A DNA stretch of 57,797 nt from a virus. Under the pieces are notes generated by a model. The model was not told the DNA's origin and did not search any database. It saw only the letters and a list, made by a program, of their open reading frames with translations. Location: the IMG/VR virus record IMGVR_UViG_3300046163_000011, positions 1 to 57,797 of that record. The stretch is one strand, 5' to 3'. Positions 5,386 to 57,797 of this stretch are shown here, piece after piece; positions within the stretch are counted from its first letter, which is position 1; every line of letters starts with the position of its first letter. The position numbers were made by a program, and so were the translations under genes.

Positions 5386-5569
5386 ACAATCCATGTTTAA
5401 ACCCTTTAAGGATAAAATAAGGGGTTACATGAATGATATAGCCGATCACATGGCTGGCGGAGGATGCGCTGATCATGAAGAATACATTAGATTAGTCGGT
5501 AAGGTTGAGGCTCTAGCGTTGCTAGAAAGAGACTTAATTGACTACGAAGAGCGATTTATACAGGAGTAG
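5372..5569 (+). CDS. Small conserved protein after portal
   Basis: 65 residues starting within the last codons of the portal gene (ATGAGGATGAGTGA overlap). The pattern MSEQSMFKPFKDKIRGYMND, then a Gly-rich turn and a helix ending in LIDYEERF, is a common companion of portal genes in marine podovirus-type genomes. Function unknown. The 106 bp gap that follows holds a perfect 5 bp hairpin at 5620-5634 without a T tract, so I do not call a terminator. Confidence 0.7.
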   Translation: MRMSEQSMFKPFKDKIRGYMNDIADHMAGGGCADHEEYIRLVGKVEALALLERDLIDYEERFIQE

Positions 5570-5675
5570 GGCTTCCGAACTCTATTTTCTTAGTGTATCT
5601 TATCGTAAGTGGAGAACAACTGGGACAAGCCCAGCAAGGTACTGTGAGCCTTATATCACTGCAAAAGGAACAGAA

Positions 5676-6044
5676 ATGTATTCTGCAAAAAAGGAAGTCG
5701 ATCAACAGGTCGCAACTAAAATACCAGAACCTACTGGTTACAAGCTCTTGATTAAACCACTTGATGTAAAAGAAAAGACTGATGGCGGCATCTATATGCC
5801 AGACGCTCTAAAGAGCGCAGAGCAAACAGCTTCCGTTATTGGCTTTGTCGTTAAAGCAGGCCCAGATGCTTATGGAGACTCTGATAAGTTTCCTTCAGGG
5901 GCTTACTGCAAAGAAGGCGATTTTGTAATCTTTCGATCTTATTCGGGAACCCGATTTAAGGTGGAGAAGCAGGAATTTCGTCTGATTAACGATGACACTG
6001 TTGAAGCAGTTGTCGAAGATCCTAGGGGGTATGCAAGAGCATGA
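5676..6044 (+). CDS. GroES-like co-chaperonin
   Basis: Cpn10/GroES-type co-chaperonin, expected to cap host GroEL and help fold the capsid protein. Key regions are PEPTGYKLLIKPLD at the first strand, GGIYMPDALKSAEQTASVIG in the mobile-loop region, and a final strand with EFRLINDDTVEAVVED. About 122 residues; bacterial GroES is about 97. ATG 5676 follows an AAGGAAC ribosome site; the frame open from 5538 is judged non-coding upstream. It ends in an ATGA overlap with the scaffold gene. Placement between portal and scaffold fits an assembly role. Confidence 0.85.
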   Translation: MYSAKKEVDQQVATKIPEPTGYKLLIKPLDVKEKTDGGIYMPDALKSAEQTASVIGFVVKAGPDAYGDSDKFPSGAYCKEGDFVIFRSYSGTRFKVEKQEFRLINDDTVEAVVEDPRGYARA

Positions 6045-36275: not shown

Positions 36276-39200
36276 ATGGCACTTATCCCAGTTCAGGATC
36301 CTCAGACAGGCAAACTGTATAACGTACAAATTGCAGGAGACACTCCAACTCAGCAAGAAATTACTGAGATTAAGGAGTGGCTTGCGTCACAGAGCCAACC
36401 TGTTGAAACCACAACTCCAATAGCAGAAACAACACCAGCAGAAGAGCCGGGCTTTCTTGAAAGCACCGCTGGCGCTGGCATTGACCAGATACAAGCACTG
36501 TTTGGCTCTGCCGCAGAGGGTGTTGGTAACGTCACAGGTTTTGATGGCCTGAGAGATTGGGGTCGTGAGGTCAACGAGGCTAACGAAGCTGAGTACGCAG
36601 AGAAGACTCAAAACAGACAACAGCTAGAAGATGTAGGTGGCGTTGGAGACTTTGCTAAATTCGCTGGGGAAAGCGTTGTAGAGCAGTTGCCACAACTCGG
36701 TATGTCATTAGCCGCTGGTTATGCTGGCGGCAAGGCTGGCGCTTTTACTGGTGGTGCAATAGGTTCTTTTGCTGGGCCTGCTGGTATAGCCATTGGCGCT
36801 GGTATAGGAGCTACGGTTGGTGGCGTTGGCGGTATGGTTGCCGCAAACTTGCCATTTATATATGGTTCTCACCGCGAAGCCCAAAAAGATCAAATAGAAG
36901 CTGGAGTACAGACAGAGGTAGATGAGGGAGTGGCGTTTCTTACCGCTATACCAGCTACTGCACTAGAGACAATAGCTGAAAAAGTTATGGTTGGTAAGTT
37001 CCTTACCCCTAAGCTCATTAACAGCGGCGGTATCTTTACTAGGGTAACTAAGAATGCCGCCACTGGTGCGCTTGTAGAAGCCCCAACAGAACTAGGTCAA
37101 CAGGTCATTGAAAGAGCGCAAGCTGGCAAAGACCTACTATCAGATGATGCTTTCAAAGAATACGGACACGCCGCACTTGTTGGCGGTCTTGTGGGTTCTA
37201 GCGTTAAGGGTACTGGTGGTGCATTCACTAAAGATCAGCGCAAAGTTGACTTAGAAGAAGAGGCGCTCAAGCGTTCTCAACTAGAACAAGATGAAAAGGT
37301 GGAGGACGCACAGCTTGTGGGTGGTTTTGCCGCCGCACAAAAAGAAGCAGATGCCAGAACAGAAGATGAGGTTGTAAAGGCTCAAGTCATTCAACAGGGA
37401 AGAAGTGTTGCTGATGACGAGAGAGCTAGGGAAAAAGCCGAAGCTCAAATCAACTCGGAGAACAAGCCCGTTAACTTTGCTGATCTTGACCCAGAAGTAG
37501 TTAAGACAATAAACATACAGAGGCAACGCGCACAAGCGGCTGGTATGCCTGTTGGCACTCCAAGGCGGACAACCATCGAAGAGATGCGGGCGCTTGGACT
37601 GGATGAAGCCGCTGACGTAGAGCTAAAGAAACAAAAGGACACCTTTGTAGACAAGCATGACCGCAACACTACAGAGCGCAAGTTCAGCCAAGAGCAATAC
37701 GACAAAGCTAAAGCCAAGATCCTTGAGTCTGGCAAAGCTGACGATAAGACGATCATTGAAAGCATCAGGGAAACGCTTCCAGAAGGTCAGGATAAAGTTC
37801 CTGTCACTCTTATTGAAGAGATACGTCAAGAGCTTGCTTTAAATCGTGTAATCGAAACCAATAACGGTAAAGACTATAACGTTGCTCCAGAAGGCATTCG
37901 TGATGAAGATGCCGCAGAGCCTTTGCGTCAACGAGTGTCTAGATCTCGCGCAAGACTTGATGCCATTCAAGCCAAAGTAAAAGAGCTTGAGACACTATAT
38001 GATCAACAAGCAACAATTAACCAAACCCCAGATCAAAAGTCTGCGGCTAGAGCAGAGCTTTCAACACAGCTACAAGGACTAAACGTAGAGGCCAAGCGTG
38101 AAGAAGCTGACATAAGAAACACACAGCGTCAGATCGATACTATAGACGCACAGACTGGCGCTAATGAGCAGATAGGCAATATTAGACACGATCAGGCGCA
38201 AGCGCGGCTAGCTTTTAGCGCCGCAAAGGAAGCCGCCAAAGCCCCTAAAAAAGCAGACTACGAAACAAGAATGCAAAAACTTGTTACTGGTCTGCAATCA
38301 TACCTTAAAGGTATTGGCCTAGGTGATGTGAACCTTACAGTTCAGTCATTGCTTGAGCCAGACAAGATTGCTGGTGGTCAGCTAGTCGAGGGTTATTACG
38401 AAAGCTCTAACAAGCTAATCGCCCTAGCCACAGATTTGTATGATCCTACACTTTCTGATGCAGAGTATGAAGCTAGGCTCCGGGCTGTATTGAACCATGA
38501 GATTATTCACGCAATGCGTGACGTTGGCGTGTTTACAGATGCTGAATGGAACACTCTTACCAATGCCGCCGCAAAGCGTAAGTACAATGTAATTATAAAT
38601 GGTAAGCCTCTTGAGCGTCTTTATACGTTCATGGAACGAGAGACTCGCAGACAACAGTTTACTCCTCCAGAAAGAATGGATGGAGAGACTCAAGAAGACT
38701 ACGACATCCGCAGTGAAGCCGCCGCCGCCAGACATCAGGATCTGGTAGAAGAAGAAGCTGTAGCAGAAATGTTCCGTGCGTGGACAGACGGCAGGCTGAA
38801 GCTAGGCGGTAAGCCGCAGAGCCTGTTCAAGCGCATGATCTCATTCTTGAGTGGCGTTGGTAAGGCTCATTACGATGAGGACATCACAGCATCAGATCAG
38901 ATCTTTGAGGGCATTGTCCGTGGTGACATGGCGTCTAGAGAGTTTAAGGTTGAGCCAAAATCAGTTCCAGAGACTGCGCCGGAAGAAGCAAAGATGTATT
39001 CTTACGGTCGCGTATTCCCTGACAACTTGTCTACATTTGAAGACGAGATCATCACTATTGATCAGGCACTGGATACGCACAACTTTCCACAGAATGTCCA
39101 AGACAAGCTACTGGGCTACACAAAAACAGAAGATGATGCTGACATACGGGAGGGTACAGTTGTAACTGTTCGCCTGAACTTAAACGGCAGAACATTCTTG

Positions 39201-42200
39201 GGGCCAGATGCCGAAGCGTACAAGAACGAGTACAACTCTCAGGTCGCTCAAATCAATCGTAGTGACGCACCTGCTTGGAAGAAAGACGGCATGAAAAGCG
39301 GCCTTCCTTTTGGCCTTAACAAGAAATACGAAGGCACTACATCAACAGCAATACAGACAGCGCACCAAGGCAGAAATCCAAAAGGCAAAGCTCTTGCGTA
39401 TGCCCCAGCAGTAACTGTGCGTGATGTGACATTCTTGGTTGATCAGGGTGCAAGAGCCTCTATCTCCACTGGACTTGCTAACAAGTTCCCAATGGCTGGT
39501 GTTGCTGGAAACATAGCCCACGGCGTTAACTCTACTCGTGGCGTAGAGGTAAAGTTTAATCCGTTTAAGCACCATGTATTCGTGGCTTCATTCCCACAGG
39601 CAGACGGCACTCGCGTAGAAGTGCCAATCAAGTCAGCAGAAGAAGCTACTGTATATGGAAACACTGTCTATGTTCGAGGCAAGCTAGAGTTCTATGAGGA
39701 TGGCGAGTTACCTGTAGCCAAGACATCAGCTACTGGCACTCTTACAAGAGCGCTAGAAGGTGACGACCCTGCCAATGTTGGCAATAAAGTTACAAAGCAG
39801 ACAAATGTACCATCCTACAATTTTGATCTGCCAGAGAACGCTCAGGGGGTTGAAGTAATATCAGACTTCCTAAATCAGGAAGAGATTGGACGTAAGTATT
39901 CTATCCGTCAGCTTACGCCGGAACTTGCCAAGCTAAGTATTCTGCATCGCCTTGATGAGGACGGTAACTTCAAGACTACATATAATATGCGTCAGAAGGC
40001 AGATGGCACTTACGGTATTGACTACATATCAAAGGGTGAGGCGCTACATCTTTTGCAATCAGAAAGAGGCAACGCAAAGTTTGAGTATGTCCCTAGAAAG
40101 GGGTTCAGCAAAGAGGCAGAGGAAGAAATAGCCATTGTCATGGCGGCGGAAGCCGAAGCCGCTTTGAACAGAGATGGCAATGCTATTGGGTGGTACGACA
40201 GAACACTGAAGCTGGCTAAGAAGATGCTTACGCCAGTGTTCCCAGAGATTGCCACAGACCCAGCCGCAGAAGCTGTGTTTGATTTTGCTCTTGCTGTCAC
40301 ATCAAACGGCATCGCTGTAGTGCAGAACTTTAAGTATGCCGCAGAACAGTATAGGGCTTTCAAAGAAACAGGGCGCTTCCCAGTTGTAGGTTATGGCGAC
40401 AGAGAAAAGGCCATGAAGAAGGCGTTTCTTTTCTACAACGCTATGTTGGAAAGTGGCAAAACTGAAGCTCAAATAGCAGAGTTCCTTGATCAAGACACAA
40501 CTCCCAAGTTGATGGATCAGAACAGCGTCTTGCAAGATCTTGGAATAACTGCGCCAGCAGGGGAAGGCAAAAACTCTCCAGTTAAAATGTCTTTTGTGAT
40601 TGGGCCGAAGATTGGTCAAGGCTTCTACCAGAACCTTAGAGGCAACTATGATGTGCTGACTATGGATATCTGGTGGATGCGTATGTATAACCGCATCACT
40701 GGCAATCCATTCAAGGACATCACTAACGCCACCCTAGATAAGGGCAGAAACGATGTCGTAAAGCTAACTAAGGCGGCTTTGAAAAGAAGCACAGATCCTA
40801 GCGAAGTGCAGTCCACTGAGGATTATACGTCAGAAGATCTGGCCTATGAAGCGCAACTGGTTCAGGATACCCTGAAAGCAGAAGATATAGACATTATCAA
40901 CAAGGATAATGTTGATCAGGCGACTCTAATAATTGAAAGTGCTTTTCAAAAAGCATTTAGAGATGCGCCTACAGATGCCAGACCAACAAAAACAGACCTA
41001 TTCAAAAGAACTGGCACACACGCAGAAAACCTTGGTGGTGATGTAGAGCAAGCGGCTCCTAGAGGTTCAACTGATCGCACACAACAACGCCGCATCGCCA
41101 AGAGAGCCTTGGACATTCTTGAGGAGAACACAGGCACACGCATTAGCATGGCTGATTTTCAAGCCCTAATGTGGTATCCTGAGAAGCTCTTATTTAGAAG
41201 TGTAGGTGTTCGCCCCGGTCAAGGTAGCGACAGTGATTACGTTGACGGTGTTATTGAGCTATTAAGAGCGGAAGGAATTACAGATGGTCAGATCGAAGAA
41301 GCACTCCCCACAACAGACAGACACAGAGTCAATCCTGATGTCGATCCCAGACGACAGGATGGAGGAGTTCGTGAGGGAGTTGCAGATGACCGCTCCACCT
41401 CAGATTCCAAAAAGTACAGCGGCAGAATCCTTGCCCGAAACCTCAGAGACTTCATAAAGCAAAATCCAGATGGATACACTATAACCACTGGGGGCGGCTT
41501 TGCTGACATTGACGGAAAGTATGCTGTTGCTCCCCTGAAGTCTGCTGAGATAATCAGTGGTAACACACTACCCACATCTGTTTTGCTTGAGTACATTGAG
41601 CAGACAAGGCAGATATCAGAGATATATGGAACAGAGCTATATCTCGGTGGTTGGTTAAACAGCGAAAATAGTAAATTCTATCTCGACAGCACAATGCTGG
41701 TTGATGAGCTAGACACTGCCCTCTACATTGCTGATGCTGGTCAGCAAGAGGGGATATTTGACTTTAACACGTTTGAGGAAGTGAGAACCCAAAATGGCAT
41801 CAACCAACTCAGAGAAAGTGGAACTTATCGGAGTGAACTCGCGGAGCGATACCTCAGAGATACTGAAGAAGCTGACAAACAATTTACGAGCGCAAGGGCT
41901 GAACGTGGTGGACGATTTATCACCGCAGAGCAAGTTGCCGCAGAAAGACGCGAAGAACTCCTAACAATCAGTTCTGTTGCTGATGAGGACTATGCATTCA
42001 CAGAGTTTATCTCTCCAGAGATGGAGCAGATGGTTCGTCAAATTGATAATGTAATATCAGCACAAGGCTCAGAACAGCCATCTCGTCTGTACGCTCGCCG
42101 TCCAGTACGTCAGTTTGCTCCAGTGGCTAACGCTGTAGCTCAACGGCGCATGGACAACGGTGAAGATGTAAACATGAAGTTTCCGAATGTCCACGGGTAC

Positions 42201-45200
42201 ATGGTGGACAACTTCCAAACTGGCGAGCAAATACCTGTTTATCTGTTTGCTGGTGACGATGTAAGCCCAGATGACGATGGGGTATCTGGTGATAAAAACC
42301 ACGGCCTGTTTCACATCATACAACGCAACCACGACAAAGAGCTTGTCGAGCAGTCAAAGTACCCAAGTGTACAACAGGCTATATATGACCTGTTAAAGAA
42401 ATGGGAATCACAGGGTTATAGAGACGGATCTGCTGTTGTCGCAATGCCAACAGGCAACTTTGAGTTAGCACTTGAATGGAATAATGACATTCCTCGCAAG
42501 TCAGGCCCGCTAAAGCTGGTGCTTACAAAAGCTAGAGACAAGTCTGGCAAGCCTTTTTATTACATCAAGACATTCTATCCATTTGGTGCGGAGAAGAAGA
42601 AAAGTGTGCGGTCATTCAACCCACAGCTTCTCAACACCACTGCGTATACTCCGACTGTGCAGAACATGATTGGTCAGGCAGAAAACAACATCACTTATAC
42701 TGCCTCCTTAAATTATCTGTCTAAGTTTCTTTACATTCCTGCTGGCCTGAACATGGACAGGGCAAAGGATTGGTCAGAGCGTCTCATTACGCAATTCCAA
42801 GACCGATTTGTGCATATTGGGAAAATCGTAGATGAGATGAAGGCTAATGGTGTGACCGTCACAGACATGATGGACACATACCTGCAAGAGAGCAATGCCC
42901 AAGGTATAATAGGAGATAAGCTAAGAGAGAGAGAAAACCTACACTATAATAAACTTGGCAAACAAATATCAGAGCTTGAGGTGACTGATGCTGAGTTCAA
43001 TGATTTAAAAGGCGCATCTAATAGAAATCGCAACCCACAAGGCGGCAGTCCGTTTGGCTTTGTAGAGACTGACTATACATACAACAAAAGCAAGGCTATG
43101 ACATTAGCAGAAGCGTATCTGTATGCCTTACACGCAAAAGAAAGAAATCTTCGCATACAAAAACATATTGATCCTACCAGTGAATCTGGTTCAGGTATGA
43201 GTGATGCAGAAGCAGACGCGATCCTAAATCAAATATCTCAGATGTCTCCGGAGACACAGCAGAAGCTAAGTGAAATTCGTAGTAGCCTACAAAATCTTAT
43301 ACAAGACACAAGAAATGTTCGCGCTGAATCTGGTCTAACAACATCTGACATGACAACTCAGATAATAAATGATCCAAACGATCCTGATGTTACGATAGAA
43401 GTGGAAGAGTTTGTAGATTACATACCTCTACGAGGAAAGTTTGATGTTCTTGGTGAGGCCAGCGAAGAGGGAAACTTTGGCGCTACAAGAAGCCCACTTT
43501 ATGGAGCTAGAGGCCGCGAAGATAAACAGATGCTTGGTCGTGAGTATAGCGGTTATGCTACAACAATTATTGTTGGAGCTATGCAACAGAACCAGAACTC
43601 GGTTATTCGTGGTGAGCGTAATAAGGTTGGTCAGAGCTTTTACAGATTGTTGCTCGGTCAACAAGACGCTGACGGAAATCCATTGCCAGATGACCAAAAA
43701 GCAGAAGTGCAGAGAATTATGTCTCAGTACGCCTACATAATGGACAAAGTACCAATGCGGCGTATCTTGGACAAGAATGGCAGGGTTTCAATTATTCCTG
43801 ATCCAAGAGGAAAAGAAGGAAAGCTATCTGTAAAGATTGATGGTGAAGAAGTCCTTATAGATTTTTACGACCCAAGAATCGGTCAAGCAATGATCGGAAT
43901 GAGCGGATCTCCAGAGAAATCTAATGGATTTATGAGAGCGGCATTCAAGTTCAATAGATATCTGTCCACAATTAACACCACATACAACCCATCATTCTTC
44001 TTTACCAATATCTTCCGTGATATCCAAACTGCTGGTGTGAACATCAATCAGTTTGAACGTGAAGGTCTTACTAGAGAAATGATGAGCAACGTAAAACAGT
44101 CTTGGAAAGCTGTTCGCGCTGGAGTTCGCCTTGAAGAAGAAAGCTCGATAACAAGAGAAGACGCATTGCAACCGGGGTTTGACATTAACTCTGTTTCTGA
44201 CGTTGACCTATTTAGACTGTTCCAAATTTTTGGTGGTCAAAATGCTCTGAACCAGACCAGTAGTTTGCAAGACCAAATTGAAAATATCGACAGTATTCTT
44301 GGAGATATACCGCGTGAAGGATTTAAGGCTGAAGTAAAAGACTTTGCTGGAAAGTATGCGGCTCCAGTAAAGAGACTTGGTAAATTCTTAGAAGACTACA
44401 ACACAGTCGCTGAAAATATGATGCGTGTAGCCGCATTCAAAGCACTCGCTCCAAGGGTTGGTATGGAGAAGGCCGCTTTTGCCGCCAGAAACCTTACAGT
44501 TGATTTTGCAAAAGGTGGTGAGAACAAAACACTTCTGAACTCCCTATACCTTTTCTACAACGCATCTATGCAGGGTTCATTCGCAATTCTCAATGCTCTT
44601 GCCCGTTCAAGAAAAGTGCAGAAGATTTGGGCTGGTATAGTTGTGGCTGGTATGGTGCAAGATCAGTTGAACGCCATGCTGTCAGAAGAAGATGAAGATG
44701 GCGATTTGGTGTATGACAATCTTAAGCAATGGAGACTTGAAAATAACATCATGTTACCACTTGGGAACAAGAAATACTTACAGATACCCCTGCCATATGG
44801 TCTGAACGCCGCATTTAATATGGGCAGATCACTTAGCAGATTCTCAAGAGGCCAATACTCTATAGGACAAGCTGGGTCAACAATCTTTGGAACTGCCACA
44901 GATGTGTTTAACCCATTCGGCGGCAACCTTGGTGCTGTTATAACAGGAGAAGATGGCGCAAGCATAGGCAACGTAATTGCTCCTACAATAGCAGATCCTT
45001 TTATTGACGTTATGTTTGATAATACAGATTTCAAGAACAGTCAGATTGCAAAGAAGCCAAACGCATTTGACCCAACACCTACACCTAACTCACATCTGTA
45101 CTGGTCAACAACAGACCCTAATTTTGTGAAAGTAGCACAAGCCATTAACTCACTTACTTTTGGTAGCAGTGTAGAAAAAGGCTTCATAGATCCATCACCT

Positions 45201-45692
45201 GATGTTCTTGAGCATATATATCAGTTTATGACTGGCGGCGCTGGGTCATTCGCCGCAAGGGTTGGCAACTTCGGCATAAATGTAGCCCCTGCCGCACTAC
45301 AGGGTGACTTTGAAGAAGATATGATACAAGCCACACCAATAGCCAGACGCTTCGTTGGCTATGTAGGAGAGCGTGGTGACACAGAAGAGTTCTTCAACGG
45401 AAGAGATAAAGTTTTGCTTGCTGGTGAGGTTCTGAAGAACGCATACGCAGTAGGAAACATGGAAGAAGTTGAGAGCGTGAAGAAGAGGTTTACAAAAGAG
45501 TTGCGTATCTACGGAGCGATTAAGAATGTAAACAACGCTCGTAACCGCATCCTACGCAAGATGGCAAAGATCAAAGACAACCCAAGGATACCTAAAGCCA
45601 CTAAGGATGCCGCTATCAAAAAGTTGAGCGAACAGGTAAACGCGATAGTGATGCGTGGTAATCAATACCTCAACCAATACGACATACAGTGA
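36276..45692 (+). CDS. Giant polyvalent/ejected virion protein (3138 residues)
   Basis: Expected to be packaged in the head and ejected with DNA. Residues ~139-195 are Gly/Ala-rich and hydrophobic (AGGKAGAFTGGAIGSFAG), able to form a membrane channel. A coiled-coil zone follows to ~680. H741-E-I-I-H745 in LNHEIIHAMRDVG is a zincin-type metallopeptidase motif. Later modules include ASISTGLANKFPMAGVAGN and GYTITTGGGFADIDGKYAVA. The C-terminal third contains an LPD38-like region (NSLYLFYNASMQGSFAILNA, then NIMLPLGNKKYLQIPLPYGL). It is intact over 9.4 kb and is the largest gene of the window. Domain names rest on motif recognition only. Confidence 0.7.
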   Translation: MALIPVQDPQTGKLYNVQIAGDTPTQQEITEIKEWLASQSQPVETTTPIAETTPAEEPGFLESTAGAGIDQIQALFGSAAEGVGNVTGFDGLRDWGREVNEANEAEYAEKTQNRQQLEDVGGVGDFAKFAGESVVEQLPQLGMSLAAGYAGGKAGAFTGGAIGSFAGPAGIAIGAGIGATVGGVGGMVAANLPFIYGSHREAQKDQIEAGVQTEVDEGVAFLTAIPATALETIAEKVMVGKFLTPKLINSGGIFTRVTKNAATGALVEAPTELGQQVIERAQAGKDLLSDDAFKEYGHAALVGGLVGSSVKGTGGAFTKDQRKVDLEEEALKRSQLEQDEKVEDAQLVGGFAAAQKEADARTEDEVVKAQVIQQGRSVADDERAREKAEAQINSENKPVNFADLDPEVVKTINIQRQRAQAAGMPVGTPRRTTIEEMRALGLDEAADVELKKQKDTFVDKHDRNTTERKFSQEQYDKAKAKILESGKADDKTIIESIRETLPEGQDKVPVTLIEEIRQELALNRVIETNNGKDYNVAPEGIRDEDAAEPLRQRVSRSRARLDAIQAKVKELETLYDQQATINQTPDQKSAARAELSTQLQGLNVEAKREEADIRNTQRQIDTIDAQTGANEQIGNIRHDQAQARLAFSAAKEAAKAPKKADYETRMQKLVTGLQSYLKGIGLGDVNLTVQSLLEPDKIAGGQLVEGYYESSNKLIALATDLYDPTLSDAEYEARLRAVLNHEIIHAMRDVGVFTDAEWNTLTNAAAKRKYNVIINGKPLERLYTFMERETRRQQFTPPERMDGETQEDYDIRSEAAAARHQDLVEEEAVAEMFRAWTDGRLKLGGKPQSLFKRMISFLSGVGKAHYDEDITASDQIFEGIVRGDMASREFKVEPKSVPETAPEEAKMYSYGRVFPDNLSTFEDEIITIDQALDTHNFPQNVQDKLLGYTKTEDDADIREGTVVTVRLNLNGRTFLGPDAEAYKNEYNSQVAQINRSDAPAWKKDGMKSGLPFGLNKKYEGTTSTAIQTAHQGRNPKGKALAYAPAVTVRDVTFLVDQGARASISTGLANKFPMAGVAGNIAHGVNSTRGVEVKFNPFKHHVFVASFPQADGTRVEVPIKSAEEATVYGNTVYVRGKLEFYEDGELPVAKTSATGTLTRALEGDDPANVGNKVTKQTNVPSYNFDLPENAQGVEVISDFLNQEEIGRKYSIRQLTPELAKLSILHRLDEDGNFKTTYNMRQKADGTYGIDYISKGEALHLLQSERGNAKFEYVPRKGFSKEAEEEIAIVMAAEAEAALNRDGNAIGWYDRTLKLAKKMLTPVFPEIATDPAAEAVFDFALAVTSNGIAVVQNFKYAAEQYRAFKETGRFPVVGYGDREKAMKKAFLFYNAMLESGKTEAQIAEFLDQDTTPKLMDQNSVLQDLGITAPAGEGKNSPVKMSFVIGPKIGQGFYQNLRGNYDVLTMDIWWMRMYNRITGNPFKDITNATLDKGRNDVVKLTKAALKRSTDPSEVQSTEDYTSEDLAYEAQLVQDTLKAEDIDIINKDNVDQATLIIESAFQKAFRDAPTDARPTKTDLFKRTGTHAENLGGDVEQAAPRGSTDRTQQRRIAKRALDILEENTGTRISMADFQALMWYPEKLLFRSVGVRPGQGSDSDYVDGVIELLRAEGITDGQIEEALPTTDRHRVNPDVDPRRQDGGVREGVADDRSTSDSKKYSGRILARNLRDFIKQNPDGYTITTGGGFADIDGKYAVAPLKSAEIISGNTLPTSVLLEYIEQTRQISEIYGTELYLGGWLNSENSKFYLDSTMLVDELDTALYIADAGQQEGIFDFNTFEEVRTQNGINQLRESGTYRSELAERYLRDTEEADKQFTSARAERGGRFITAEQVAAERREELLTISSVADEDYAFTEFISPEMEQMVRQIDNVISAQGSEQPSRLYARRPVRQFAPVANAVAQRRMDNGEDVNMKFPNVHGYMVDNFQTGEQIPVYLFAGDDVSPDDDGVSGDKNHGLFHIIQRNHDKELVEQSKYPSVQQAIYDLLKKWESQGYRDGSAVVAMPTGNFELALEWNNDIPRKSGPLKLVLTKARDKSGKPFYYIKTFYPFGAEKKKSVRSFNPQLLNTTAYTPTVQNMIGQAENNITYTASLNYLSKFLYIPAGLNMDRAKDWSERLITQFQDRFVHIGKIVDEMKANGVTVTDMMDTYLQESNAQGIIGDKLRERENLHYNKLGKQISELEVTDAEFNDLKGASNRNRNPQGGSPFGFVETDYTYNKSKAMTLAEAYLYALHAKERNLRIQKHIDPTSESGSGMSDAEADAILNQISQMSPETQQKLSEIRSSLQNLIQDTRNVRAESGLTTSDMTTQIINDPNDPDVTIEVEEFVDYIPLRGKFDVLGEASEEGNFGATRSPLYGARGREDKQMLGREYSGYATTIIVGAMQQNQNSVIRGERNKVGQSFYRLLLGQQDADGNPLPDDQKAEVQRIMSQYAYIMDKVPMRRILDKNGRVSIIPDPRGKEGKLSVKIDGEEVLIDFYDPRIGQAMIGMSGSPEKSNGFMRAAFKFNRYLSTINTTYNPSFFFTNIFRDIQTAGVNINQFEREGLTREMMSNVKQSWKAVRAGVRLEEESSITREDALQPGFDINSVSDVDLFRLFQIFGGQNALNQTSSLQDQIENIDSILGDIPREGFKAEVKDFAGKYAAPVKRLGKFLEDYNTVAENMMRVAAFKALAPRVGMEKAAFAARNLTVDFAKGGENKTLLNSLYLFYNASMQGSFAILNALARSRKVQKIWAGIVVAGMVQDQLNAMLSEEDEDGDLVYDNLKQWRLENNIMLPLGNKKYLQIPLPYGLNAAFNMGRSLSRFSRGQYSIGQAGSTIFGTATDVFNPFGGNLGAVITGEDGASIGNVIAPTIADPFIDVMFDNTDFKNSQIAKKPNAFDPTPTPNSHLYWSTTDPNFVKVAQAINSLTFGSSVEKGFIDPSPDVLEHIYQFMTGGAGSFAARVGNFGINVAPAALQGDFEEDMIQATPIARRFVGYVGERGDTEEFFNGRDKVLLAGEVLKNAYAVGNMEEVESVKKRFTKELRIYGAIKNVNNARNRILRKMAKIKDNPRIPKATKDAAIKKLSEQVNAIVMRGNQYLNQYDIQ

Positions 45693-54155: not shown

Positions 54156-54932
54156 TTAGGTGTTGAACATCTTGGTCATATTACGAACCGCACGTTGACG
54201 TAACAGCTTGTAGGCCTTGGTCACGGTGTCGCTGTATGAGTGTGGGATAGCGTCCTTGCCATCAGCGGTTGCGACTGCTGGGTTGTGTTGTGACGTATCG
54301 CCGTATGTGCATAGGTAGCCTATCTCTGACGTACCCAGTCCATTCTTGAATGCTACAGCAGTCACCCTGTAGACGGTCATCCCTTCCTCTTGACAATATT
54401 TTACGTCAATAGGCTTTGCGGATAGAACAAACCTCTTGCCCTTGGATGAATTGATAATGGCAAGGCCACGCTGAAACACTGCACGATACCAAGAAATGCT
54501 GACTATTATATCAGTTGATTTGTTCCAACTGCTTTTGGGGTTGTTCTGTTCTGTGCCTACTTCTTTAGAAGAAGTGGCAATGTGAACATCAGTATTTGAG
54601 CGAGGGAAAAACTCCCCAAGTGTACTTCTTGCTTGGTCTTTTGTTAAGACCTTGTGCTTGCCCATAGGGTTGTAAGTTTCACGCAATGAACGGCTGTTCC
54701 TGTATGAACTTATCGCGCCCATGAGGTCATCTACATAATCATAAAACGCACCATACACCTTAAAGCCTTGAGATGTTTCTGTATCGAAATAATCTTTCAG
54801 TCCATCTAAGTTATGGCGGCTGGCTATCCTGATATCCTTAGCCATTTTATGAGGAACGCCCCAAGCATCGCAGGTATCAAGCATCTGCTTTTTTGCCAGT
54901 TCCATCATTTTGTAATTTTTTACTGCGTCCAT
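54156..54932 (-). CDS. Hypothetical protein downstream of the metallopeptidase/VWA gene
   Basis: 258 residues with a GGGAG site. Helical N-terminus (VKNYKMMELAKKQMLDTCDA), middle with HNLDGLKDYFDTETSQGFKV, then beta-rich C-terminus (GKRFVLSAKPIDVKYCQEEG, MTVYRVTAVAFKNGLGTSEI). No family recognised. It has the same leader (terminator, palindrome, GGGAG) as the VWA protein and the 57409 gene, so it probably belongs to the same regulated group. Confidence 0.6.
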   Translation of the reverse strand: MDAVKNYKMMELAKKQMLDTCDAWGVPHKMAKDIRIASRHNLDGLKDYFDTETSQGFKVYGAFYDYVDDLMGAISSYRNSRSLRETYNPMGKHKVLTKDQARSTLGEFFPRSNTDVHIATSSKEVGTEQNNPKSSWNKSTDIIVSISWYRAVFQRGLAIINSSKGKRFVLSAKPIDVKYCQEEGMTVYRVTAVAFKNGLGTSEIGYLCTYGDTSQHNPAVATADGKDAIPHSYSDTVTKAYKLLRQRAVRNMTKMFNT

Positions 54933-54946
54933 TTTATTACTCCCAA

Positions 54947-54964
54947 TTTGTAGTGTGATACAAA
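54947..54964. promoter_or_regulatory. Dispersed palindrome, copy 10 (TTTGTAGTGTGATACAAA)
   Basis: Identical to copy 12 (57423-57440). It lies 15 bp upstream of the start at 54932, between a terminator and a GGGAG ribosome site. Confidence 0.7.
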
Positions 54965-54965
54965 A

Positions 54966-54989
54966 TTAGAAAGCCGCACTAGGCGGCTT
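54966..54989 (-). terminator. Terminator overlapping the end of the VWA gene
   Basis: On the minus strand AAGCCGC-CTAGT-GCGGCTT is followed by TCTAATTTT. The stem includes the last codons and the stop of the upstream gene. Confidence 0.7.
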
Positions 54990-56118
54990 CCTCTATTACT
55001 GCGATATCCCCGAAGGGCGGTGTCTTAGCGAAGCGGCTATCAGGTGCAGTAGATAGCCATAGCACTGGGTAGTCAGGCACCGTGTCTGGGTAATCCCAAA
55101 TGCCCATATCAGATACGACAAACATCTTGTCGCATCCTATTTGGTTGTCTCTGACATAGCGGAACAAAGGCTCTACATTAGTACCGCCCCTGTCATCACA
55201 GTCTAGCTGGGGCATTGTCTCACCCTTGGCTAGTGTAGTGTGACGAGTGCAACCGCCTGACCATGTTATGATGGTGACACTCTCAGGCTGGTAGTCCTCA
55301 ATAGCCTGATTGATAACGCCTAGTGCCATCTCCAATTCCTGACCAGACATAGAGCCTGATGTATCAGGTGCAATCACCCAGTCACCAACGCCTAGCTTTT
55401 TGACAGATGGATACCAGATGCGCTGTTGCGTCCAATACTTTTTCTGAGGGCGTGAGAAGGTGTAATCATCTGGCTGATCACCGCCAGCGAACCGCCGCAC
55501 AACGTCACCCCAATCGACAGTGACGCGCCGCATCTTGGCAATAATCTCCTCAATAGCGGCTGGCAGTTTGCCAACAGATTTTGCCGCATTCGCCGCCATC
55601 ATGGCACGTTGCTTGATGCTTGCCTGTTCCTGCTTGACCTGACCTTGTGATAGGTCAGAGCCGTCAGCGTTCTTTTGCTGTTTGACCTCACCCCAGCCGC
55701 CGCCCTCGCCGCCTTCTGGTGGTTGCGGTGGTAACAGGTCGTAAATCTTTTCTGCGGTCATCCCAGTATATTGTGGGTCAATCAAACCACCTTGCGGCAG
55801 TACCATGCCGCTATCGGTCAGCCAGCCGTTGATTGCATAATCGCAAGCAATGTTCCACTGCTCATGGTCACGTTTGCCCATGCGGATATGATGCCCCATA
55901 AATATGTGAGCAATCTCATGAGCGACAACACCCATGATTTCCTCGACAGTGTGAGCATCAACAAAGGCAGATGAATAGCCAATGTCCTTGCCATCAGTGT
56001 ACATTGTGTCGTGGTCATCATCCTGTTTCATACCGCAAGACATAGCCATAGACCCGAAGAAGGGATGCTGTAACATCAGCTTTGTGCGGCAGATAGCGAT
56101 TTTTTTCTGTGCGTCCAT
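54979..56118 (-). CDS. DUF2201-type metallopeptidase/VWA protein
   Basis: 379 residues from ATG 56118 (GGGAGT ribosome site; the frame to 56157 reads through the leader). N-terminal zincin H67-E-I-A-H71 in VVAHEIAHIFMGHHIRM, then HEQWNIACDYAINGWL. Gly/Gln-rich linker (~131-165). C-terminal VWA domain with the MIDAS set: D252-T-S-G-S256, T313 in DRGGTNVEP, and D337 in FVVSDMG. Proteins of this type work with MoxR AAA+ ATPases, encoded just upstream, in protein remodelling. Role in a phage is unknown. Confidence 0.85.
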   Translation of the reverse strand: MDAQKKIAICRTKLMLQHPFFGSMAMSCGMKQDDDHDTMYTDGKDIGYSSAFVDAHTVEEIMGVVAHEIAHIFMGHHIRMGKRDHEQWNIACDYAINGWLTDSGMVLPQGGLIDPQYTGMTAEKIYDLLPPQPPEGGEGGGWGEVKQQKNADGSDLSQGQVKQEQASIKQRAMMAANAAKSVGKLPAAIEEIIAKMRRVTVDWGDVVRRFAGGDQPDDYTFSRPQKKYWTQQRIWYPSVKKLGVGDWVIAPDTSGSMSGQELEMALGVINQAIEDYQPESVTIITWSGGCTRHTTLAKGETMPQLDCDDRGGTNVEPLFRYVRDNQIGCDKMFVVSDMGIWDYPDTVPDYPVLWLSTAPDSRFAKTPPFGDIAVIEEAA

Positions 56119-56133
56119 TGTGTAACTCCCAAA

Positions 56134-56151
56134 TTTGTAGGGGGGTACAAA
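56134..56151. promoter_or_regulatory. Dispersed palindrome, copy 11 (TTTGTAGGGGGGTACAAA)
   Basis: Centre is GGGGGG. That centre can instead pair with CCCCCC (56140-56162 hairpin GGGGGGT-N9-ACCCCCC), so two structures compete, a possible attenuator. It lies 16 bp upstream of the start at 56118. Confidence 0.65.
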
Positions 56152-56168
56152 ATGCACCCCCCAGATTG

Positions 56169-57197
56169 TTAGCGTTTCGGCATCAACTCGCGGCAGTTGT
56201 CCAACATAAACTGGCGAAACTTTGCATTAGTCACCAGCTTATTGTCGCGTGTGAATGCGTCCTTGATTGTGAATACCGCGAACTCCTGATGTGGTAATCG
56301 TGCAAGGTAAGCCATGCAAGGCTCAACATTGGATGGGTTGATGCGGTCAGCGATAGCCGCGCAGACTGCATACAGGACAGACGGCTCGTCAGGGATAGGC
56401 GCACCCGATGGGTTGCCGATGATTTCCTTGTCGATGTCGGGGCAAGTGTCGAACACTTTTTTGTAGCCGTAATATTCGGCGGCGTTGCCCTCACCAACCT
56501 GACCAGCGACAGCTTCCATCTCAACGACTGTATCCAGACCCCACTTGCAGATTTCATCAACCTTGAACCATGAGCGCGGCGAACCAAACGCCATAGCGTC
56601 CTTGTCGAACTGGTTGAATAACTCAGGGCGGAAACGTGCCAAGCCCTTGAGGACTGGGCTGATGCCCTTCTTGTTTGCGTGAGCCACAAATTCGTCTAGG
56701 TCAAAATCGACATTTACAAATGTCAGGCGGTCACGCAGATGCGAAGGTATCTGGTTAGTGCCTGCCCTGTCTGACATACGGTTGCCAGCACATACGATAG
56801 ACCAGCCATCAGGCAGTGAATGCTCACCAATGCGGCGTTCATTAACCAACTGAGCCATGATGTTCTGGTTGGCAACAGGGGCTTGAGGCCACTCATCGAT
56901 GAAGATAACGCCCTCGCCTTGGCTAGGCATCCACTCAGGGCGAAGCCTGACCATCTGACCAGCCTGTTCGACAAGCCAGCCAGCAATCTCGCCAGCGTCA
57001 TATTGAGCCAGCGACAGGATAACAAGACCAAAGTTTTCATTGTCCTGTCTTTTGCTTTCAACAAACTGATGAACGATAGAGGTCTTGCCCTGCCCAGGGC
57101 TTGACATATAGGACAGAACGACACTTTCCAGCGCATTGCCGCTAGTTTGTGACTGATAAGAAGCCTCGATGAGGGCGAATGCTTGTGATAATTTCAT
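56169..57197 (-). CDS. MoxR-type AAA+ ATPase
   Basis: 342 residues from ATG 57197 (CAGGAG site). Walker A SSPGQGKTS (K38), Walker B GVIFIDEWPQ (D101-E102), sensor 1 VCAGNRMSD (N139), and an SRH-like SHLRDRLTFV segment. The C-terminal half is helical (ARFRPELFNQFDKDAMAFGS). MoxR ATPases act with VWA-domain partners; the DUF2201/VWA gene follows 50 bp later, so the two very likely form one complex. Cytoplasmic; substrate unknown. Confidence 0.85.
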   Translation of the reverse strand: MKLSQAFALIEASYQSQTSGNALESVVLSYMSSPGQGKTSIVHQFVESKRQDNENFGLVILSLAQYDAGEIAGWLVEQAGQMVRLRPEWMPSQGEGVIFIDEWPQAPVANQNIMAQLVNERRIGEHSLPDGWSIVCAGNRMSDRAGTNQIPSHLRDRLTFVNVDFDLDEFVAHANKKGISPVLKGLARFRPELFNQFDKDAMAFGSPRSWFKVDEICKWGLDTVVEMEAVAGQVGEGNAAEYYGYKKVFDTCPDIDKEIIGNPSGAPIPDEPSVLYAVCAAIADRINPSNVEPCMAYLARLPHQEFAVFTIKDAFTRDNKLVTNAKFRQFMLDNCRELMPKR

Positions 57198-57202
57198 GAT
57201 AA

Positions 57203-57409
57203 CTACTCCTGATTTTGTGTGTGTTTTTTGCAGTGAAATTTGTGCGATATCTTGGCGGCATCCTCTATGCACTTTACCCAGTCTTTATCGCGTGAATGCT
57301 TGCCATGCACTCGCTTGAAACTTTCCCAAGAGAGCGGCTCCCATAAGCCAGCGACATCATCGCAATGCTCATGCCAAAGTTGCATTCTGGTAGGCTCAAC
57401 TATCATCAT
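57203..57409 (-). CDS. Hypothetical protein
   Basis: 68 residues from ATG 57409 (57406 is an alternative) with GGGAGTTGAA before it. MIVEPTRMQLWHEHCDDVAG, then WESFKRVHGKHSRDKDWVKC and a His/Lys-rich end KFHCKKHTQNQE. Several His and three Cys could bind metal. It precedes the MoxR gene by 5 bp and carries the palindrome leader, so it is likely the first gene of the ATPase/VWA unit. Confidence 0.55.
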   Translation of the reverse strand: MMIVEPTRMQLWHEHCDDVAGLWEPLSWESFKRVHGKHSRDKDWVKCIEDAAKISHKFHCKKHTQNQE

Positions 57410-57422
57410 TTCAACTCCCAAA

Positions 57423-57440
57423 TTTGTAGTGTGATACAAA
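57423..57440. promoter_or_regulatory. Dispersed palindrome, copy 12 (TTTGTAGTGTGATACAAA)
   Basis: Identical to copy 10. Lies between a G/C-rich terminator and the GGGAG site of the 57409 gene. Confidence 0.7.
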
Positions 57441-57471: not shown

Positions 57472-57797
57472 TTAGGATGCTTCAGCAAACTGCTCGACCA
57501 TCTCATTGATAGCGGCGGTTGCGTCAGCCTCAGTATCGCCAGCGGCTTGTGCGGCCTCAGATGCGGCCTTTTCCATTTCGGAACGTAACCGCAGAGCATC
57601 AGCCAGCGCACCGACTACTGGCAATTCACCGCCGACACCGACACCGAACAGGGCGTCAATATCTTCCCATTCCATGCCGCCAATCCACTTGTCACCATCG
57701 ACACGGTTGCCCTTGTCATCCTTTTTGGTGGAACGCTTGCCAGCGATTTTCTGGACAATTTTTGCCACCTCGCTGACTGCATCCTTACCATAAATTG
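57472..57797 (-). CDS. Hypothetical protein, N-terminus beyond the window
   Basis: The frame is open to the right edge (reading IYGKDAVSEVAKIVQKIAGK), so the GTG at 57768 is probably internal. At least 108 residues are visible: basic start, KWIGGMEWEDIDALFGVGVG, and a long Ala/Glu-rich helix ending EMVEQFAEAS. No family recognised. It is upstream of the ATPase/VWA unit and separated from it by a terminator. Confidence 0.5.
   Translation of the reverse strand, partial: IYGKDAVSEVAKIVQKIAGKRSTKKDDKGNRVDGDKWIGGMEWEDIDALFGVGVGGELPVVGALADALRLRSEMEKAASEAAQAAGDTEADATAAINEMVEQFAEAS

Follow-up and report, generated by a model that had tools for sequence, protein, structure and literature searches.

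A phage MoxR-type ATPase and metallopeptidase-VWA pair lies in a conserved four-gene operon and tracks replication genes, not head genes

We analyzed a stretch of 57,797 bases (hereafter, the window), an IMG/VR entry from an aquatic bacterial virus that is classified as linear and whose relatives form a podovirus lineage of 48 to 62 kb. It encodes a MoxR/midasin-like AAA+ ATPase (A) and, next to it, a DUF2201_N metallopeptidase fused to a VWA domain (V). The pair is already known, since it has been published for the core genes of N4-like phages and for jumbo phages. What is new here is that in this lineage the pair is embedded in a conserved operon, U-ATPase-VWA-X, and that it tracks a block of replication and recombination genes, not the head genes.

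The gene for A (positions 56169 to 57197, minus strand, 342 aa) runs from an ATG at 57197 to a stop at 56169. The gene for V (54979 to 56118, minus strand, 379 aa) runs from an ATG at 56118 to a stop at 54979, and has an alternative in-frame GTG start at 56157. The first-pass annotation had placed both genes correctly, on the same strand and 50 bp apart; A is the upstream one. Directly 3' of V is X (54156 to 54932, minus strand), which encodes a fast-evolving 258-aa protein of no known family. U (57472 to 57797, minus strand) lies upstream of A, and the window end cuts the gene, leaving the C-terminal part of a protein of ~228 aa. A 78-aa ORF (57203 to 57439) with an uncertain annotated start lies between U and A; it had no Pfam or PHROG family match and was absent from every neighbor cluster of eight or more loci. 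The order X-V-A-U on the minus strand, between the primase and TerL genes, is found in the window and in G001, G002, G003, and G008, and in each of them the operon is oriented opposite to the late block.

The Walker A, Walker B, and sensor motifs that had been read in A are present in the window and conserved across 87 two-gene loci. Walker A is SSPGQGKTS at residue 32, Walker B is FIDE with D101 and E102, sensor-1 is N139, sensor-2 is R208 in a PRSW motif, and R157 is a candidate arginine finger. K38, E102, and N139 are each conserved in 85 of 85 cases, R157 in 82 of 85, and R208 in 86 of 86. Residues 26 to 335 gave a full-length family match to phrog_1297 (2e-59), the N4 gp24 family, and homologs of A carry N4 gp24-like annotation. 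With the window protein alone as query, the sole Pfam matches were to PF00004 and PF13245, and neither reached the cut-off. The family profile, searched against the PDB, matched midasin AAA modules first (1.8e-34), followed by Clp/VCP-type ATPases, CbbQ (4.9e-8), and NorQ (4.3e-7).

V carries both of its domains in one chain, the metallopeptidase N-terminal (PF13203, 5.4e-42) and the VWA domain C-terminal (PF09967, 1.6e-11), and matches phrog_1314 (2.2e-89), the N4 gp25 family. The HEIAH zinc-site motif (residues 67 to 71) and the full MIDAS set (DTSGS at 252 to 256, GGT at 311 to 313, and D337) reported earlier for this protein are both present and nearly invariant across loci. H67, H71, and a conserved D93, which is probably the third ligand of the HExxH site, were found at 87 of 87 loci and E68 at 86 of 87. 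The AlphaFold model of V has a pLDDT of 86, and its C-terminal half matched VWA/MIDAS folds, including the ArnB paralog VWA2 and the MDN1 MIDAS. The family is labeled "HNH endonuclease" in PHROGs (phrog_1314) and in many phage records, a label that the domains of V do not support. In the V homolog of Ochrobactrum phage ZX86 (L014, 4944 to 6158), HMLWH replaces HExxH; the loss of the catalytic Glu with retention of the MIDAS suggests, from sequence, that proteolysis may be dispensable in that lineage.

A tblastn search of phage records found V in 528 and A in 766, including LUZ7 genes annotated as N4 gp24-like and gp25-like. Viral contigs scanned with A and V queries yielded about 100 loci; narrow V alignments were used for these collection scans because wide ones (13 sequences) were too diverse. 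A scan of genome contigs with A found no relatives. In all 87 distinct two-gene loci A was upstream of V, and in 86 of them the two genes shared a strand; these counts do not represent independent events, since the 87 loci include close relatives. Where a single gene was found, the end of the contig or locus accounted for it, the one exception being Vibrio phage 1.150.O, whose A gene shares the strand of V and lies 5.9 kb upstream. The A and V distance matrices correlate (r = 0.93 over 79 loci; permutation maximum, 0.21), and neither protein is unusually fast-evolving. The pair was found in podoviruses, jumbo phages, Vequintavirinae, and a cyanophage. With the two genes co-occurring in relatives and their catalytic residues nearly invariant, the claim that the phage carries its own MoxR-VWA pair, with active sites intact, is supported, and the pair is strongly conserved.

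The accompanying claim, that no role has been defined for such a pair in phages, was too strong. The pair corresponds to the N4 gp24 and gp25 families, and a role in virion assembly has already been proposed. Papers on N4-like phages count N4 gp24 and gp25 among the core genes, under the labels "unknown" or "vWFA" (PMC4193335, PMC7650795, PMC2784036), and place them among the middle genes (PMC4193335). A review describes an ATPase and metallopeptidase-VWA pair in group 2.2 jumbo phages and gives the virion-assembly proposal (PMC7824862). We found no report in the literature of a test of the role of the pair in phages, and no genome-wide N4 screen in the accessible portions of the CRISPRi-ART papers.

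N4 gp24 and gp25 belong to the same two protein families as the window pair, in the same order and with intact motifs. Unlike the window, the N4-like loci examined had no detectable U or X beside the pair, and the window phage differs from N4 in its virion genes and primase. The group 2.2 jumbo phage pair (ASV44729/ASV44728, PMC7824862) has the same domain architecture and pairing. The window phage, in contrast, is small and podovirus-like and has U and X, and in its lineage the pair is not distributed as the head genes are. Roseobacter phage CRP-7 (gp07, gp15, and gp16) is the closest isolate for both proteins (40% for the ATPase and 31% for the VWA protein). As in the window, an X homolog comes directly after the CRP-7 VWA gene, but a 1.7-kb gap holding seven small genes separates its ATPase and VWA genes, and no U was detected. 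RavA-ViaA, NorQ-NorD, CbbQ-CbbO, and midasin also combine an AAA+ ring ATPase with a MIDAS VWA domain, with remote similarity to the window pair. We know of no DUF2201_N metallopeptidase domain in the partners of these systems.

U and X were recognized by clustering the neighbor genes around the pair. Of the environmental loci with enough sequence on the relevant side, 49 of 63 had U upstream and 40 of 56 had X downstream, each always on the strand of the pair. No PHROG family and no convincing Pfam family was found for either. Planktothrix phage Pag-Yong1 encodes a relative of U (UMO76054, 1e-7), and profile comparison identified CRP-7 gp16, likewise located after V, as a homolog of X (hhalign probability 94.8, P = 5e-8). 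The model of X (pLDDT 90) had no match in a PDB structure search and one in BFVD, a 321-aa protein (1e-8) equal in length to CRP-7 gp16 and possibly the same protein. Of 521 pairs compared, 519 showed lower conservation in X than in V. A relationship between U and X was rejected, and an X homolog after V in Pag-Yong1 was not supported (hhalign probability 0.6 to 0.8).

The distribution of the pair was compared with that of the virion genes. The window shares TerL (48 to 57%), portal, a GroES-like protein, MCP (56 to 73%), adaptor, and a 629-aa structural protein with six relatives: Pelagibacter phages HTVC023P and HTVC027P, DSL-LC04, 023Pt_psg01, CRP-901 (all but TerL, within the stretch examined), and Pag-Yong1. 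The GroES-like co-chaperonin, encoded at 5538 to 6044 in the structural block, is common to all compared relatives. In HTVC023P, HTVC027P, DSL-LC04, 023Pt_psg01, and CRP-901, none of the four genes A, V, X, and U was found above E 1e-3 by a profile search of the stretches examined, and neither PF13203 nor phrog_1297 matched anything in their whole records. The pair and U are both present in Pag-Yong1. The primase-helicase and exonuclease were found in six of six pair-positive phages and a Sak-like annealing protein and RusA in five of six; none of these were found in the negatives. CRP-7 has other virion genes than the window, yet it encodes the pair, X, and the same primase-helicase. In G010, which has the pair, TerL is the sole gene in common. 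CRP-7 joins the window before Pag-Yong1 does in both protein trees (node supports of about 0.9); Pag-Yong1 shares the virion genes of the window, yet its pair is more distant from that of the window than the CRP-7 pair is. In LUZ7, the pair precedes the helicase and DNA polymerase genes. The pair thus tracks the replication/recombination block, in a sample that holds few independent losses and gains and in which the pair is confounded with the whole block. Since the pair follows this block and is missing from relatives with the same head genes, the distribution favors a role in the intracellular phase of infection over one in head assembly. Maturation of virion proteins, one of the functions proposed in the first-pass annotation, is disfavored for head proteins on the same grounds; the other two, dismantling of host complexes and counter-defense, are candidate roles.

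Our preferred reading, which we hold tentatively, is a phage MoxR-VWA remodeling machine with an intracellular client, for which X would provide specificity or be the client itself. Remodeling or proteolysis inside the cell during takeover would fit the distribution better than head assembly does. By analogy with RavA-ViaA, NorQ-NorD, CbbQ-CbbO, and midasin, the machine is most likely of the type that joins a ring ATPase to a VWA client-gripper, here with a fused protease. The ATPase would form a hexameric ring and the VWA domain of V would dock on it, holding the client by the MIDAS metal; the energy of ATP hydrolysis would then be used to pull or remodel that client. At the docking point, the fused HExxH domain may cut the client or bind metal. 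The client would be a host protein complex or a phage replication or transcription complex, not a capsid part, and the machine would probably be made in the early or middle phase. In the lineage of the window, the fast-evolving X may supply client specificity or be the client.

The main alternative, a possible but unlikely one, is virion assembly or maturation, in which the pair would fold or trim a structural protein, here most plausibly a giant LPD38 protein (36276 to 45692, 3138 aa; PF18857, 7e-32). This giant is likely an ejected polyvalent protein, and its C-terminal part resembles large proteins from Stx, Vibrio, and DarB-like Burkholderia phages. It was considered as a client since LPD38 tracks the pair: giants of 2564 to 3208 aa occur in 10 of 11 pair-bearing environmental contigs and another in Pag-Yong1 (2772 aa), and none was found in the five pair-negative relatives. 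Because of this co-segregation in the lineage of the window, the giant ejected virion protein could be the client. The jumbo-phage proposal, with its Acidianus two-tailed virus precedent (PMC7824862), the encoding of phage RPP1 virion proteins near gp24/gp25 (PMC4193335), and the injection of a giant protein by N4-like phages as well (PMC7650795) point the same way. However, CRP-7 and G010 carry the pair without an LPD38 protein, and the whole head/portal/adaptor block is common to pair-positive and pair-negative relatives. The spread of the pair from podoviruses to jumbo phages, Vequintavirinae, and a cyanophage and the orientation of the operon opposite to the late block also argue against virion assembly. 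Giants like the LPD38 protein are also present in Stx and Vibrio phages.

A counter-defense or host-takeover protease, which overlaps with the intracellular remodeling machine that we prefer, is distinctly unlikely as a separate explanation. V would cut host defense or regulatory proteins, and X would be a rapidly diversifying target adaptor. The near-universal retention of HExxH, the faster divergence of X than of V, and the lineage-specific flanking genes are consistent with such a role. Against it, N4-like phages of various hosts have the pair among their core genes (PMC4193335), which points to a constant need, and A and V do not evolve unusually fast. PADLOC profiles of anti-phage defense matched neither A nor X, and the only hit to V, capP at E = 0.026, was counted as no defense match. 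In a bolder version, which we regard as less likely still, U-A-V-X would be a phage-specific four-component AAA+ remodeling protease. X, a new family for which the PDB yielded no structural relative, would be its rapidly evolving client-recognition subunit and would turn the conserved MoxR-VWA engine toward host targets in early takeover. Cofactor insertion or activation of a phage metalloenzyme, as NorQ-NorD and CbbQ-CbbO do, is very improbable: the ATPase/VWA architecture is the same and NorQ and CbbQ are among the profile matches of A, but no metalloenzyme gene was seen after the pair in the phages compared, and the fused metallopeptidase is unlike NorD or CbbO. The two linked families added here, U and X, one of which could name the client, and the separation of the pair from the head genes make the role of the gp24/gp25 machine in phages a testable question.

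A palindrome, TTTGTA-N6-TACAAA, is present in the window in seven perfect copies and five with one mismatch (at 815, 8975, 28263, 29801, 45797, 48397, 52306, 53769, 54947, 56134, and 57423, among others). Ten of the 12 copies are intergenic, although the window is ~92% coding, and no 6-N6-6 palindrome exceeded two copies in 20 Markov shuffles. The pair and its flanking genes had been thought to share a leader. The palindrome, together with an SD, does precede X (54947 to 54964), V (56134 to 56151), and ORF 57203 (57423 to 57440), but it does not precede A itself, and with 12 near-perfect copies in the window it is not operon-specific. Because it is also found at late-gene boundaries, the palindrome is a genome-wide element and not a mark of the U-A-V-X operon. 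It is a candidate operator or an RNA element, such as a processing-like site; no protein cognate to it was found. Relatives have repeated palindromes of their own: AAAGTT-N6-AACTTT in L032, a AAAAGTGCACTTTT-like one in L065, and TATGTAC-N4-GTACATA in L021.
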